Shown: positions 8,940 to 58,782 of the stretch, in pieces
How the letters are laid out: every line of letters starts with the position of its first letter
How positions within the stretch are numbered: the stretch's first letter is position 1
Assembly (NCBI GenBank): GCA_033065855.1
Contig: JAVXUO010000644.1
Location: forward strand, 682,001-746,000
Origin: Escallonia rubra
Lineage: Eukaryota; Streptophyta; Magnoliopsida; Escalloniales; Escalloniaceae
Direction: 5' to 3'
DNA length: 64,000 bases
The notes under the pieces: generated by a model
Databases searched by the model: none
What the model saw: only the letters and a program-made list of their open reading frames with translations
Told to the model about the DNA's origin: nothing
Position numbers and translations under genes: made by a program

Positions 8940-9168
8940 TTACCTGATTTGGAATTTATACCCGATGTGGTTTTACATCTCTCTCGATGTATTGAAACCT
9001 CATGTCCAACTTAAAAACATGTTCAAGAGTAGGATCCCACCAGGTATAAAAACTACAATCTAAATCTCGTGTATGGTCGACGTGGGACTTAACACCCACC
9101 TTCACGCGAAGGGTGGAACATGAGATGATCCGTTGAGCCAAGCTCTGATACAAGTCTAGTATCCAACC
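8940..9168. repeat. Dispersed repeat unit, copy A (interrupted by hAT)
   Basis: This stretch contains AACATGTTCAAGAGTA, then AATCTCGTGTATGGTCGACG, and ends CAAGCTCTGATACAAG followed by ATCCAACC. The same blocks recur in the same order just beyond the hAT element at 10425-10525, so the hAT inserted at the junction of two units. Its TATCAGAGC complement resembles a primer-binding site, so the unit may derive from a small LTR or TRIM-like element. That assignment is tentative. Confidence 0.5.
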
Positions 9169-31421: not shown

Positions 31422-32073
31422 GATAATAGTAGAGGTGTCAATGAGTCGGGCTTGGGACGGCCCAGCCCGGGCCCAGGTGGGCCTTACGTGAAAACGGGCA
31501 TGGGCCGGGCAAGAAGGGTGGAAAAAAGGCCGGGTCGGGCTAGATTAAGGGGATATATAGGCCCAGTCTAAGCCCTGGCCCTAGGCCTAATATTTAGGGC
31601 CGGGCCGGGCCAGATTAATGAGATATATAGGCCCAGTCCAAGCAATGGCCCTAGGCCTAATATTTAGGGCCGGGCCCGGGCCTTTTTTTTTCTTCTTCCC
31701 AACTTCTTATTATTCAAAGTAAAGATTTGAATTGCGGTAATTTCTTGTTATTATGTAAGCAAATTGTAATTTAGTACTATAACTAGGATTATGTAGTGGA
31801 GTATAAGATCTGTACATTTAGTAATATGTGTGTATGCAAGCAAGTAAAGAAACTAAAAATGTCTAGACACGCACACATATATGTAGTAATATGTGTGTAT
31901 ATAATAATATTTTTAGCATTCAAATATTCTTTTTGATATAGTTAAATTGAAGATAAATTTGTTCATATACCCTCCTCCTTTTATCCGGGCTTAGGATCGC
32001 TGCTTGTAAACAAACAAGCGAAGTTACCTATTTTTTTTATATATATGAAAAAATATCTAACTTGCTTCTAAAA

Positions 32074-32080
<7 letters not shown>

Positions 32081-32132
<52 letters not shown>
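32081..32132. repeat. TA microsatellite, left flank of nested MULE
   Basis: An uninterrupted TATATA run ending at the left end of the nested Mutator-like element. An equivalent run continues at 34226-34285 on the other side, so the element sits inside what was one TA tract. Any 9-bp target duplication is therefore hidden in the repeat. Confidence 0.9.
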
Positions 32133-32135
<3 letters not shown>

Positions 32136-32248
32136 AGCTGATCCGTTGAGAGCGCTAGCAAAATAGGAGATCTTGCAAACGCGATCTGGCCGTCCATCCT
32201 GAAAGATGGACGCCCCAGATCACGCCTTTTTCGAATACTGTCAGTTGT

Positions 32249-32427
32249 CCGCGACACTATATCGCGGATGGACTTTTTTTACCTTTTTGCCCCTCCGCTA
32301 CACTGTATCGCGGACGGTCCAGATCTTTTTTTGAGTTTTTTTTAAGTCTGTCCGCTACATTATGCAACGAACTATTTTTTGACAATAATACTCTCATGTT
32401 CTATCCGCTACATTATGTAGCGGACGA
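32249..32427. repeat. Palindrome array in left terminal repeat of the Pack-MULE
   Basis: Four imperfect palindromes of the form GTCCGC-N(10-12)-GCGGAC, spaced about 45-60 bp: near 32249, 32296, 32345 and 32404. The cores vary, for example GACACTATATC and TACATTATGTA. They match in inverted order the array in the right terminal repeat. Confidence 0.75.
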
Positions 32428-32827
32428 GTAGACAGACACTACTTTTTTTTTTCTCTTTCTCGGTCCTTTCTCTCATTATCCTTCTGACATCTCTCTCTCT
32501 CTCGTTTCTCTCACTGTCCTTTCTCTTTCTCTCCCCCCCCTCTCTCTCTCTCTCGTTTCTCTCACTGTCCTCATTTTCCTGTTCTTCCTCAACCACAGCA
32601 ACAGAGGATGAAGAAGAAGTGGAGGGTTCAATTTCTCTCTCTCCTCTCTCTCTCGAGCATAATCTCATGCCGCTGCACCTCTCCATGATCCAGCCGGCGG
32701 AGATGACGACGGCCTCGTCTCAGATCAGCTCGCCGGACACAATCAAACCATTTGGTCCCTATAAAAGTTGGTGCATCTTCCCTCCCTCCCGCCCGTTCTG
32801 CTTCTACTCTTCCTCTCAAAACCTCTG

Positions 32828-33121
32828 CACTCCATTTTCTGGGTTCCATGGAAAATCCAGCGACACTTCAGGAAACAAGGCGTAGTGGGGCCCAGCTACT
32901 GTCCCATTGTCGGGAACTCGGCGGAGATCAGCGACACTTTAAAACCTCTAAAGGAGCAAAATGACAGAAGTTACGAGGAGCCAAATGACAGAACTTCGAA
33001 CGCCTACACGCCGTGGGTGCTAGATCCGGTCACCGGTTACTACCGGCCAGAGAATCAGGCCAAGGAACTTGACGCCGCCGAGCTACGTGAGTTGCTGTTG
33101 AAGCACAAAATTATACGACAC
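32828..33121 (+). pseudogene. Chimeric captured frame: cytochrome P450 N-terminus joined to LEA5/SAG21 C-terminus
   Basis: One open frame carries two unrelated conserved pieces. The first (about 32828-32929) reads IFWVPWKIQRHFRKQGVVGP then a SYCPIVGNSAEI segment. This is the N-terminal basic and proline-hinge region of a CYP72-clan cytochrome P450, just after its membrane anchor. The second (about 32999-33121) contains WVLDPVTGYYRPEN and ELDAAELRELLLKHK and ends at a natural stop, matching the C-terminus of LEA_3-family (Lea5/SAG21) proteins. About 23 residues of unclear origin join them. The open frame extends upstream to about 32768 but has no ATG. The heme-binding and catalytic parts of the P450 are absent. 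Both fragments share orientation and frame, the signature of a chimera made by a Pack-MULE. Expression is unknown. Confidence 0.72.
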
Positions 33122-33829
33122 TAAATTTGAAATTCAAACACGAATCAAATCTCATTTGCAAACTTGTTCCTACTTAGATCAAGGGTTTCCATAACAGGAA
33201 GCAGCTGCAAGGATTCGTCCATTAACACCAAAACATTACAAGCACATGAAACAAATGACAAACGGTTCCACTGTGGGAGTGCATCCTGAATCAAATCTCA
33301 AAAATTCCAATGTAAATCTGTATCTATGCATACACGAATCAAATCTCCTTCGATTCCCACCGTCCATTCCCATCACCACACACCACTTGATCCCGCTCGC
33401 GTCCCCGCCCCCTTCTTTTTCAACTCCCCTTCTCACCACGACGACGCCGGATCCGATCCCTCCGATTTTTTAGCCTGAATTTTCAGACTCGATCCCCCAG
33501 GAATTCGGTCCCCTGTCTCTTTGACTCCTCTTCTACTGAAATTTTTTTTTCCGTTCAGCTTCGCAGCGTAGTCGTTGCTCTCCGGTGAATGGAGGAGCGG
33601 AACGCGAGTTGATGACGCCGGAATCGCGCTGTGCTACACAGTGATGCCGGCTCGTCTCTGGCGCCGGTTCAAGCAGCTCGAGTCGCTGAAGCTCAATTCG
33701 GTGAGGCAGAGAAAAGAGAGAGGAATGAGAGAGACAGAGTAAGAAGAAAGAGTCATAAATTGATGATAAAGAGAGATAGAGATGTCAGGAAAATTAATGA
33801 CAGAACGAGAAAAAAGGACTGAAAACTTG

Positions 33830-34115
33830 TCCGCTACATAATGTAGCAGACGAAACAGACTGTCATTTCTGTCAGAACATTAATGACAGAAAGAGAAAAA
33901 AGGTCTGAAAACTTGTCCGCTACATAATGTAGCGGAAGGACTCTTTTTAAGTTGGAGGGTATTATTGTCAAAAAATAGTCCGCTACATAATGTAGCGGAC
34001 GGACTTAAAAAAAACTCAAAAAAAATATCTGGACCGTCCGCAATACAGTGTAGCGGACGGGGCGGAGGGGCAAAAAGGTAAAAAAGTCCGTCCGCGATAT
34101 AGTGTCACGGACAAC
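33830..34115. repeat. Palindrome array in right terminal repeat of the Pack-MULE
   Basis: Five imperfect palindromes with GTCCGC/GCGGAC arms near 33830, 33916, 33978, 34037 and 34091. The typical core is TACATAATGTA. The first two lie within a roughly 85-bp tandem duplication that also repeats ATTAATGACAGAA and CTGAAAACTTGTCC. This explains why the right side has one copy more than the left. Confidence 0.75.
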
Positions 34116-34224
34116 TGACAATATTCAAAAAAAGCGCGATCTGGGTCGTCCATCTTTCAGGATGGACGGCCAGATCGCGTTTGTAAGATCTCTTATTTTG
34201 CTAGCGCTCTCAACGGATCAGCTC

Positions 34225-34290
<66 letters not shown>

Positions 34291-34349
34291 AAAACTATAT
34301 TTTGTGAAAAAATTATTCTAAAAACTTGAGAAAAGGAAAATAAAAAAAA

Positions 34350-36615
34350 AATTACCTAATCATCCGGAAGTACTTCAACATCCGAGTCACTGCTCTTCCT
34401 ATCATCAATCGATTTTTATTGCTCGCGATATTTTGCATCAAGATAATCCTTTCAACATACACATAGCTCGAGCGATTCGGGGTTAAGACGACTCCTCATG
34501 TCATCCAAAACCCCTCCGCTCGCTGAAAATGGTGACTCTAAAGCAACTGTGGAGGCTTGCACCAACAGTACATCCTGTGCAATTTGGGATAAAGTTTTAT
34601 ACATGTTTTGATTTTGTTTCAAAAAATTTAACAAATTAAAACTAACATGTTCTTGCATTGATAATTCAGAATAATGATCAGAATTGGAATATACACCAAT
34701 CTAATTAAAAAAGAAAAAAGTAGACGAACATGCCGAATTAGAAGTACCTTCACCTGGTAGTTGTCTTGCTACTAGATGTTCAAAGCCCTTAAGGTATGGC
34801 GCATAATACCTCTTAGCAGTCGATGATGAAGCTCGCTCGCGCACGTTAGTAGAATTACGATAGAGATTGACAGTTCCTCAAATGTCTTGCTCACTTTCGC
34901 TGTGAGTTCGGTTGTGTCCGCTTCTGGGTAGCACATTAATCTCGATATCTCTTGTATCGAGACGTTCACGCCATGCAACTTTAACCTAGGATCTAAACAA
35001 GTAGCCACAGCAAAAACAACATGCAGTTCACTCTAATATTTATTAAACGTTTTATCCATCACTTTTACTATTTCCTGAAAGGGTCCTATATATTTCCATT
35101 TTGTTAACATTGTAGCCATCTTGAGAATTTCTATTACAGCGAGAGGAGATGTGAGATAGTACGTACCAGACAATAAATTGGTAGACGTGTAAAATACCTC
35201 AAAAAATTCAGATAGGTGTGTAGCTATCTGGCATTCCGTGGGAGTTGGCAAGCCGACTGGGAACAAGGTTAGAAGAAAATGCGTATAGACTTTTTTGTAT
35301 GCCAGAATATGTAAAAGCATATGATATGTAGAGTTCCACCTATGGACCACATCTGTAAGTGGTCTCCTGCAAGACATATTATATTGAACACACAACGCTT
35401 TAAATTGTTGTGTTCTCGAACCTGAACTATTAACATACGCTGTCATACCCCTCATTTTGAGAAGAATATCTCCTGCGGCAGTTAAACCATCTTGAATAAT
35501 TAAATTAATTATATGACAAACACAACGAATATGAAATAATTTACCAGAAAGTACAGGTTTGAGGCTTTCCTCTAAAGCATCAATAGCATCTTTATTGTTA
35601 GTAGCATTATTAAAACTAATACTCATAATCTTATCATTTAATTTAAATGTGGTACATGCTTTAAGTATAATAGTAGCAACGTTAATTTCATCATGCGGAA
35701 AAGAAAAGAGTTCGAAAGCGATGATTCTCTTGTTCATAATCCAATCTGCATCAATCCAATGGGCCGTCACACAAGCATAACTAACAAAAGTAAACGGAGA
35801 TTGTCAAATATCAGAAGTAAGACTAACTTTACCGTCAAAATGATCGAAATAATCGATCAGGCGTGCTTTAGCAGCATTATACTGTCGGAGTGCATCAGAT
35901 CTAGTTGTGTTTCTATGAACCTTTTTGTACAAAGGTTGCACGTGGTGTTCACATAAATAGAGTGCTTAGCATTATCGGCAAAACTAAAGGCTTGTTCATC
36001 GTGAATAACAAATTCAGCGAGACCGTCTATTTACTTTTGCTGATTATAAACAAATAATTTACCGTCAAAAGATAACTGCGTTTGGCTAGGTTCGACGTGG
36101 CCTTGTTGAGGTGCACACTGAGGGTAATGCCTGTTAAGATATCCATTATCACTACCAGACGAAAATAATTTAGCACAATACTTACATCGAGCTTTTCAGA
36201 TGCCGTCCACCATAATTTCATCAAAATGATTCCAACACTCGGCTTCATTTTTTTTTTCACCTTTTGGACTTCTGGCTGACTACCGGAAGGACTGCTCGGC
36301 CCTTCTCCATCACGACCGTTCATCGGGTTAACATTATGCCACGGAATAGTAGCTTTGCCAACCGAGCTGCGCGCGTCTTTGACTAAAATGCAAGCTATCT
36401 TGTGAAGGCGTGTATTCAATATCTGGAATGTTTTGATTGAACTCCCAATTGGCTTGGGTATCTATCATACATCCTGTACTCATTCGTTCAGGAACGAATG
36501 GTTGTAGTGGTGCTTGGATTGGTGTTTGTGATGGCCGTGGTGGTGGTGCTTGTGCTGGTGGTGGTGTTTTTCGTGATGATGATCCACGCTTCAATTTCTT
36601 CAGTATTCCAGCCAT
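34350..36615 (-). pseudogene. hAT transposase (zinc-finger BED, RICESLEEPER-like), degenerate
   Basis: From 5' to 3' on the minus strand there are four parts. First is a low-complexity proline-rich N-terminus (36615-36334, MAGILKKLKRGSSS). Second is a BED finger region near 36240-36100 (CKYCAKLF, then LNRHYPQC). Third is the catalytic region 35770-35033 with TAHWIDADW, CHIINLIIQDGL and HRWNSTYHML. Last is the C-terminal hAT dimerisation domain 34658-34452 (LSQIAQDVLLVQASTVALES, FSASGGVLDD). The coding sequence is spread over several frames with at least one in-frame stop in the BED region. Where the family has the catalytic LDNAS motif, this copy has FNNAT, so the second catalytic aspartate is replaced by asparagine. 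The copy cannot encode an active transposase as it stands. Confidence 0.88.
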
Positions 36616-37384
36616 ATTTGATGCTAAACTTTTTACTAGATTGAAAAATAAAACTAGAGCAGTAATATGTAATTAGAAATAATAATTAAAAAAAATTAAA
36701 GAGTAACTAATGAATAAAAGTAATTAGTAATTCAAAATTGGAGAGTTAGTAATTAAAAAGAATTTGGTAATAATAATTAATAAATAAGAATTCACTAATT
36801 ACTAATTAGTAAACAAAATAATTAGAGAGTAACAAATGAATAAGAGGAGTAGCTAGTAATTAGAATTTAGAAAGAGTAGTAATTAGTAAACAAGAGTATT
36901 GATTAACAAGAGTAGTAATTAGTAAGAGTAGTAATTGGAGAGGGAAATAGTAGCAAAACTTGTAGAAATGTAGAATGTTTAGATAAGAGAGAGTAAGAAG
37001 ATTGGTGTAAAAAATTTGAAAGAAAGGGTGTAAATTTATAGATTTTTGAAAGTCTACAAAAAACTAAAATGCCCCTTAAAACTAGCCGTTTATAGTTGTT
37101 GGGAAGGGTAAAAGTGTTTAAAACCTTAAAAGAGTTGGAAAATTTAAGTTGGACCAAATTTTAAAATCCGTAGGGCCAGCCCACTTTAGGGCCAGAAAAC
37201 CAGGCCAAAAGAGGGCCGAAGCCCGGGCCAATTTCGGGCCAAATCGGGCCTGCCCGTTTTTTAGGGCTTGACCCGGGATTTTTTTGGAATTCTTCGGCTT
37301 GGTCCAAAGCCCTAAAATAATGGGCCGCTATTGTTCACCTACAGGGCCGGGCCGTCCGGCCTTTTTGACAACTCTAGATAATAG

Positions 37385-57422: not shown

Positions 57423-58782
57423 GTCACCAAAAGGTAACTAAAGTGCATAGCTTTTTCTTTTTATTTTGGGCAGATTCTATTCTTTACCTATAATGTCAGT
57501 TTGTATGTAATCCTTTGGCCGTTTGTATATAATCTTTGGTTGTTTATATCACACTTTAGTCACCAAAAGGTAACTAAGGTGCATAGTTTTTTATAATGAC
57601 AACTTGTATATAATGACAGTTTCTTTTTATCTGTTGGAAGAGCATTTCTTGCGCGAGGAGTCCAAGTAGAATCTTAAGCCTGTTATGGAATCCTTTGGCT
57701 GTCCTATGTCCATCCAAAACCCAGGTATGACCATTGCATAATGCTTTTCCTTTGCTGTAATGCTGGGGAAGACCTTAAGAAATGTTAATGTCAGCTTACT
57801 TTGGTTACCATAAGAAATGTTAATGATTGATTTTTCTTTCATTGAATTTTTTCAGAAATATAGATTATATGGTGGTTGAACTTCTCATTCCCTTTCACTA
57901 GCTTCCCTGCTTTGTTCTAGCTCGTAACCATGGATCAGCTAAAATAATGTATGCAGAAGTCGGAAAGATAGAAATAGAATGCTTCACTTTCTAGGAAACA
58001 TTGATTTAGAAGTTCCTCCATGCTTAGCATATTTTCACTTTGACAAGGAACAGTGGAAGTGTCCACTTAATAAATTTGATAAGGTACCTAACATAACATT
58101 CTCTTGAGGACTACCAAAATGTTCCACGACCAAATCTTCTGCCATATCTTTGGCATCCTTTATCATCGCCTTGTACCTTTTCCATTGTGTTTTCGCCCTT
58201 TGCGTGACTGATTTTTCTTTCATTGCATTTTTTCAGAAATATAGATTATATGCTGGTTGAAGGTTGATTGGCAATGAAGGTTTTGAAGATGCTTGTTTGG
58301 TTTAAAGACTAAAGAGGGCTTCTTTCTTCTTTAAGTTAATCTGATGGATATATTTGATGTGTGTAATTTGATTTAAAGCTTAACAGATGCTATGTAAGGA
58401 GTTATTTTCTTTTGAATGTTATGTAATTTTCATTAGAATTTTAATAAATGCTATGTAATGATGTGTGTAATGAGTTATTTTCTTTGGATGTTATGTAATC
58501 TAATTAGAATTTTAGTCTTATTAGCTAAGATCCGCTAAATTACTTGAGTTTTGTTACAAATTTTTAGTTGTTTTGGGCCTACAATGGAGTCTAGCCCAAA
58601 CCGATTTGATCCGTTTAAACCGAACCGTTCGATCCATCTAATTCGTTAAAACTGAACCGTTCAACTACGGTTCGATTTATTTTTTTCCAAATCGATGTTG
58701 GTCGGTTCGGTTTGGTATTCAACCTCCAAACCGAACCGTGCTCAGTCCTAGTATATACAGTATCAAATTTCTAATAGGGAAA

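Follow-up and report, generated by a model that had tools for sequence, protein, structure and literature searches.

Does an open reading frame that runs through pieces of two unrelated genes inside a transposon represent a new chimeric gene, or is it a by-product of the element that carries it? This question is raised by a 64,000-nucleotide stretch of Escallonia rubra DNA (hereafter, the window), in which fragments of a cytochrome P450 gene and a LEA gene share one frame within a Mutator-like element (MULE). A preliminary description of this DNA had read the locus as a Pack-MULE, that is, a MULE carrying host gene fragments, and had proposed the fused frame as a candidate chimeric transcript or as a source of small RNAs directed against its parents. 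Pack-MULEs reportedly go back to the work of Jiang in 2004, and we know of no settled account of how they come to hold pieces of several genes. The explanation that we hold to be very likely is a non-autonomous, TA-microsatellite-targeting Pack-MULE inserted into a TA tract within a hAT transposon, with a cargo from multiple loci and a P450-LEA frame that would be a by-product without a start codon.

The Mutator-like element and its host transposon

The non-autonomous element occupies positions 32134-34226, as delimited by its inverted ends and by the ends of its family. Self-comparison of the window gave 91% complementarity over the outer 159 nt (32134-32292 compared with 34067-34225), and a second inverted block of the same element was 93% complementary over 70 nt; the right end extends to position 34226. 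The left terminal inverted repeat (TIR) lies at 32134-32565 on the plus strand and the right TIR at 33700-34226 on the minus strand, both with approximate inner limits, so that the window element has the long TIRs (~430-530 bp each) that characterize MULEs. Between them we found captured host gene fragments and no transposase, the arrangement that defines a Pack-MULE. Of the three G's with which elements of the family usually terminate, the left end has two. Seven near-palindromes of the type TCCGCTACATAATGTAGCGGA were also observed within both ends (32248-32430 and 33830-34066), and are possible transposase-binding or hairpin sites.

A chance inverted repeat was ruled out, as the terminal 16-mer GGGAGCTGATCCNTTG occurs 3175 times in the genome (1572 forward and 1603 reverse), compared with zero occurrences in either orientation (0 + 0) for a reversed-pattern control. 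Any target duplication of the window copy would be masked by its TA-repeat flanks. In the sister copy L012, which lies outside TA, a 9-bp direct repeat (ATCTTGTTA) is found at both ends, adjoining GGGAGC...GCTCCC.

We searched the genome for the MULE transposase domain (PF10551), scoring the best 150 of 3309 candidates, and compared the matches with the first 100 listed places of the TIR 16-mer, which reach C131:10072 and cover contigs C1-C129. Among the matches listed on these contigs, 8 of 17 were within 10 kb of a TIR 16-mer, and five of the eight (C17, C64 and three on C85) were bracketed by a convergent TIR pair 7.1-9.6 kb apart; the remaining nine had no listed end within 30 kb. All eight near-end matches scored 118.6 bits, seven of them with an open frame of 783 aa and the one on C70 with 577 aa. 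Autonomous members with a MULE transposase and the same ends exist, known here from positions alone, and the family transposase would have been supplied in trans to mobilize the window element. Given the size of the TIR family, the bracketing of transposases and the 9-bp duplication of L012, the element is therefore placed among MULEs by test and not by resemblance.

The family shows a tendency to lie in TA microsatellites. In a sample consisting of the window and 38 loci (L009-L046), which were chosen by cargo similarity and not at random, 58 of 68 distinct termini directly adjoin an alternating TA run of 8 bp or more, compared with 62 of 20,000 random window positions. Pairs of elements stand end to end in six places (L009, L013, L014, L016, L023 and L044), with ~17-79 bp of TA between them. 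As a side observation, the 13-nt end motif AGCTGATCCNTTG has four matches in the window, compared with 0.32 expected; those at 9123-9135 and 57928-57940, each with one mismatch, are possibly remnants of related elements.

The window copy is bordered by TA microsatellites at 32077-32133 and 34227-34286, which lie within a hAT transposon of 5947 bp including the insertion (31430-37376, minus strand). This transposon has the ends TAGAGGTGTCAA and TTGACAACTCTA and identical 8-bp copies of GATAATAG on both sides (31422-31429 and 37377-37384), and its hAT domains are on the minus strand; the 8-bp target duplication, the short inverted ends and a dimerization domain, all characteristic of hAT elements, are thus present. 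A Pfam search of the decayed transposase (34452-35803, minus strand) identified Dimer_Tnp_hAT in 34452-34700 (E = 2.6e-17) and a sub-threshold hAT-like RNase-H in 34772-35032, and no Pfam family in 35033-35803. In MULE-free relatives of the hAT at C3162, C1095 and C2103, the tested halves are 62, 53 and 34 bp apart, respectively, compared with 2214 bp in the window, which indicates that the MULE is an insertion into the hAT. The part of the hAT at 34290-35030 was also found at 39 other places with 91-93% identity among the best 40 of 1163 candidates scored. The TA tract of the host hAT is a ready landing site for MULEs, into which the Pack-MULE very likely inserted. The preliminary description was correct in naming a Pack-MULE, in nesting it within a hAT and in reporting TA flanks on both sides.

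Captured cargo and donor loci

We compared the cargo with donor loci in fetched stretches of 5-10 kb, taken from 566 Mb of searched genome; no TIR match was found in the fetched donor stretches (C933, C1242, C2125 and C1384). The first captured piece (32664-32740, plus strand) is 94.8% identical over 77 nt to a 443-aa ORF at C933, for which Pfam returned no family and which looks DUF1645-like. It overlaps the second piece by three bases (CAC) at their junction. The second piece (32738-32950, plus strand) is a 5' part of a cytochrome P450 gene, most similar to a group of ATG-less tandem copies at C1242, with 96.7% identity over 213 nt to the copy at C1242:56k. No Pfam family was matched by the P450 fragment as translated in the window frame or by the 67-aa frame of this closest donor, and a PDB search with the 119-aa fused frame gave no match. 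Two tandem neighbours of the donor on C1242 matched PF00067 at 9.2e-9 and 8.1e-8, and for one of them a PDB search also gave P450 chains, with a best E of 0.00055. Beside the P450 donor, at L029 3814-4506 on the minus strand, is an ORF of 230 aa that presumably resembles chloroplast ccsA, which suggests either that the nuclear assembly includes plastid DNA or that the contig is mixed.

A linker (32951-33005) lies between the second and third pieces, and the sequence at 32946-32979, which extends into it, is 91% identical over 34 nt to the P450 locus on C1242. The third piece (33006-33126, plus strand) is the 3' end of a LEA_3a gene (PF03242) including its stop codon, with 95.9% identity over 121 nt to an intact gene at C2125; Pfam placed LEA_3a in residues 64-115 of the 119-aa frame (E = 1.2e-16). 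The fourth piece (33155-33297, minus strand) comes from a leucine-rich-repeat (LRR) gene at C1384, with 96.1% identity over 129 columns for 33155-33282 and a further 26 nt for 33272-33297. LRR_4/LRR_8 domains were found in the C1384 donor ORF on the opposite strand, so that this piece is antisense to the first three, and Pfam returned no match for a second ORF of the same donor locus. A probable fifth piece (33342-33702) has candidate donors at C2371:249803 (90%) and C1524:48263 (83%), identified by position alone.

Judged by these similarities, the cargo is drawn from at least four host loci, one of them read antisense, and probably from a fifth. The two host fragments originally reported were therefore an undercount: four are firm and five likely, with two firm pieces and a probable one having been missed. 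The LEA and P450 origins proposed at that time both held, the former by direct family match. For the latter, the segment itself had no Pfam match, and the assignment stands through its donor, with PF00067 detected only in the donor's neighbours; the CYP72 clan named for it then is a candidate label. A single ordinary host gene containing both segments was ruled out, as the non-MULE matches of P450 and LEA are on separate contigs (C1242 and C2125) whose fetched stretches show no TIR match.

Coding potential of the P450-LEA frame

The fused frame (32765-33124, plus strand) has 119 codons, contains no Met and, as initially reported, joins both pieces in a single open frame ending at the LEA stop. 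The block formed by the first piece, P450 and LEA is present at a minimum of 18 places in the genome; this count and that of transposases are lower bounds because only the best candidates were scored (here 40 of 122; for PF10551, 150 of 3309). The window and L009 each have an open frame of 119 codons. In L010 (G000:C2300) the LEA end is lost, and the frame continues beyond the LEA piece into right-hand cargo sequence to a total of 193 codons, a length that is apparently a chance product of the deletion. A Met is absent from the frame in all three copies that are open through both pieces (window, L009 and L010). In the P450 gene at C1242:76k, the ATG is located in a stretch that is missing both from the element and from the 56k and 68k copies, and the start codon was thus probably gone before capture. 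Furthermore, in 15 of the 18 copies with both pieces, found among the best 40 of 122 candidates, a common 1-bp deletion near position 32920 separates the P450 and LEA frames.

We also compared substitutions among copies and with donors. The window and L009 differed with pN 0.022 and pS 0.036 over the whole frame, and with pN 0.036 and pS 0.044 in the P450 part; for the window and L026, the values were 0.014 and 0.022. The LEA piece and its C2125 donor gave pN 0.034 and pS 0.074, corresponding to three and two changes, respectively, which fall partly on the donor's own branch. In the P450 piece compared with its donor, pN was 0.036 and pS 0.022, and the window and L010 differed by seven nonsynonymous and no synonymous changes. 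The comparison of parental divergence that had been recommended thus gave a mixed result, with pN below pS for LEA and above it for P450. These counts are few and mixed, without clear constraint, and would be insufficient alone to decide whether the frame is coding.

A coding chimera was rejected on the basis of the missing start codon together with the common frameshift. The P450-LEA 'fusion protein' very probably does not represent a new gene; as far as the sequences indicate, the fused frame is most likely non-coding cargo and is probably not under protein-level selection, and a host function as a protein most likely does not exist. Two observations count against the non-coding reading, namely that in two copies, those of the window and L009, the frame stays open as far as the LEA stop and that pN is lower than pS for LEA and its donor. 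One could accordingly envisage a new chimeric gene whose start codon is spliced in from upstream, such that P450 and LEA are translated as one protein. The lengths of the open frames in the window, L009 and L010 would agree with this, as would the excess of pS over pN in the LEA-donor, window-L009 (whole frame) and window-L026 comparisons; an ATG frame also starts just upstream, at 32667, in another phase. However, we judge such a gene to be highly improbable, given the lack of Met in every open copy, the absence of the ATG-bearing segment from the P450 copies at C1242:56k and 68k, the 1-bp deletion between the pieces in most copies, and the excess of nonsynonymous change in the window-L010 and P450-donor comparisons. 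The in-frame chimera proposed as a candidate gene was therefore not borne out, and the case serves as a caution: an open frame through two recognizable gene pieces was, on present evidence, no gene.

The second proposal, that the locus is a source of small RNAs, is compatible with the main explanation of a Pack-MULE with a by-product frame. Transcription driven by the TIRs or reading through from outside would produce double-stranded RNA and, from it, siRNAs by which the parental LEA, P450 or LRR genes would be silenced. Such siRNAs are possible because exact 21-mers are common to the element and the intact LEA (42), LRR (39) and ATG-bearing P450 (39) loci; the antisense orientation of the LRR piece would also be favourable. 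In maize, Pack-MULEs are among the siRNA reservoirs that act on donor genes, according to the available part of a 2026 review (PMC13317346). However, common 21-mers are expected from capture alone, and we consider a small-RNA role rather unlikely.

Assembly history and relation to known families

Elements that hold part of the cargo (the first piece; the first piece and P450; LEA, LRR and the fifth piece) each retain donor sequence that is missing from the window copy. In L041-L045, the stretch derived from the piece-1 gene is 266-370 bp long, compared with the 77 bp of it present in the window; further pieces of the window cargo were not found in these elements. L026 combines the first piece and P450 at the same junction as the window, and its P450 donor sequence continues for 51-54 bp beyond the point where it stops in the window. 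L036 contains LEA, extended on both the upstream and the 3' side relative to the piece in the window, followed by LRR and the fifth piece, and has no P450 match; in common with the window, it shows changes at the LEA stop that are absent from the donor, the same one-base LRR deletion and the junction after it. LRR and the fifth piece, with no LEA match, are found in L032-L035. Because such part-assemblies survive in one genome, the order of assembly can be inferred from sequence. On the basis of common junctions and donor remnants, the simplest history is probably a fusion of L026-like and L036-like cargos of older Pack-MULEs, in which an element with the first piece and P450 would have been joined to one with LEA, LRR and the fifth piece.

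Gene capture by MULEs is frequent, and similar donor regions occur in several of the elements; each piece might accordingly have been taken directly from its gene, with the other elements making captures of their own. However, independent captures would not be expected to yield the piece 1-P450 junction that L026 has in common with the window, nor the LEA-stop changes, LRR deletion and following junction that recur in L036, and we regard this alternative as improbable. Returning to the fusion of older cargos, we tentatively suggest, without giving the idea much weight, that TA targeting is its engine. With these MULEs landing end to end in shared TA tracts, adjacent Pack-MULEs would recombine or switch template, merge their pieces and swap ends, and the resulting combinatorial cargos would then be spread by the end type that is currently mobile.

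The window and L009 keep the long form of the cargo, as does L027 apart from internal deletions, and the segment 33073-33476 is missing from L010 and the 15 frame-shifted copies. We used L017 as an example of the latter, L018 and L013 being near-identical to it. Compared with the window, L017 is 96-97% identical in the P450-LEA blocks and 91-94% in the right-hand cargo, and only 72-84% per block in the outer regions, which span ~300 bp at the left end and ~250 bp at the right. L010 matches the window at 96-97% in the first two left blocks counted from the outside but at only 78% in the third; its right side matches at 91-95%. The ends of the frame-shifted copies read GGGAGCTGATCCCTTG where printed, and the first 16 nt of their outer ends match two transposase-bracketing pairs, those on C17 and C64, in which both ends read the same. 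A later lineage would have lost 33073-33476, gained other outer ends, of the type found on these two pairs, and spread. Among the 12 of 15 frame-shifted copies compared over their full length, median identity was 98.3% (66 pairs, range 96.0-99.7), which points to recent spread. Single sites (CGA/CAA near 32933 and CAG/CAA in the first piece) group the copies differently, and this conflict makes gene conversion among copies likely, or else repeated mutation.

Multi-parent Pack-MULEs (PMC4858842) and TA-targeting MULEs (PMC4486113, PMC5907723) are already known from the portions of these papers that were available. In Oryza, 5-10% of MULE-derived putative genes take ORF sequence from at least two parents, and a small proportion are constrained, as stated in the available portion (PMC4858842). 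The Escallonia element resembles these Pack-MULEs in being a non-autonomous MULE with long TIRs and host gene fragments inside; unlike them, as far as that portion describes them, most of the Escallonia members lie in TA microsatellites, and elements with partial cargos survive in the same genome as a record of the order of assembly. The accessible text on MuTAnT of Medicago truncatula (PMC4486113) describes a TA-microsatellite target, an autonomous mudrA-like member, a 9-nt duplication and variable loss of terminal G's, all similar to those seen here. The terminal sequence of MuTAnT is GGGGTTTGCTAGAACA, whereas the Escallonia family ends in GGGAGCTGATCCNTTG; 90% of MuTAnT members are 200-300 bp, and 'captur', 'Pack-MULE' and 'host gene' have no occurrences in that text. 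The SaTar elements of guayule and rice, in the part of the source at hand (PMC5907723), are likewise non-autonomous MULEs; they lie in microsatellites, (TA)n among them, and form un-nested end-to-end arrays, comparable to the six pairs described above. Guayule SaTars are ~400-1700 bp, rice rSaTar1, 3 and 5 are classed as non-Pack-MULEs, and the same part contains no occurrences of 'captur', 'gene fragment', 'gene sequence' or 'coding sequence'.

Microsatellite-targeting and gene-capturing MULEs, which are treated apart in the sections of the literature looked into, are thus linked in this family. In the accessible sections of the MULE literature searched (including PMC4486113, PMC5907723, PMC8903248, PMC8277862, PMC3310237, PMC13317346 and PMC4858842), we found no report of a TA-targeting family with a multi-gene cargo and surviving part-assemblies, although absence from print is unproven. 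A further likeness is to PM-ZIBP of tomato, a tandem-TIR MULE in which, according to the passages available (PMC3310237), a Pack-MULE derivative with altered ends outnumbers the original (13 copies compared with 1). The TIR is duplicated in PM-ZIBP, whereas in Escallonia both TIRs differ in their outer part, as though it had been replaced by that of a related subfamily.
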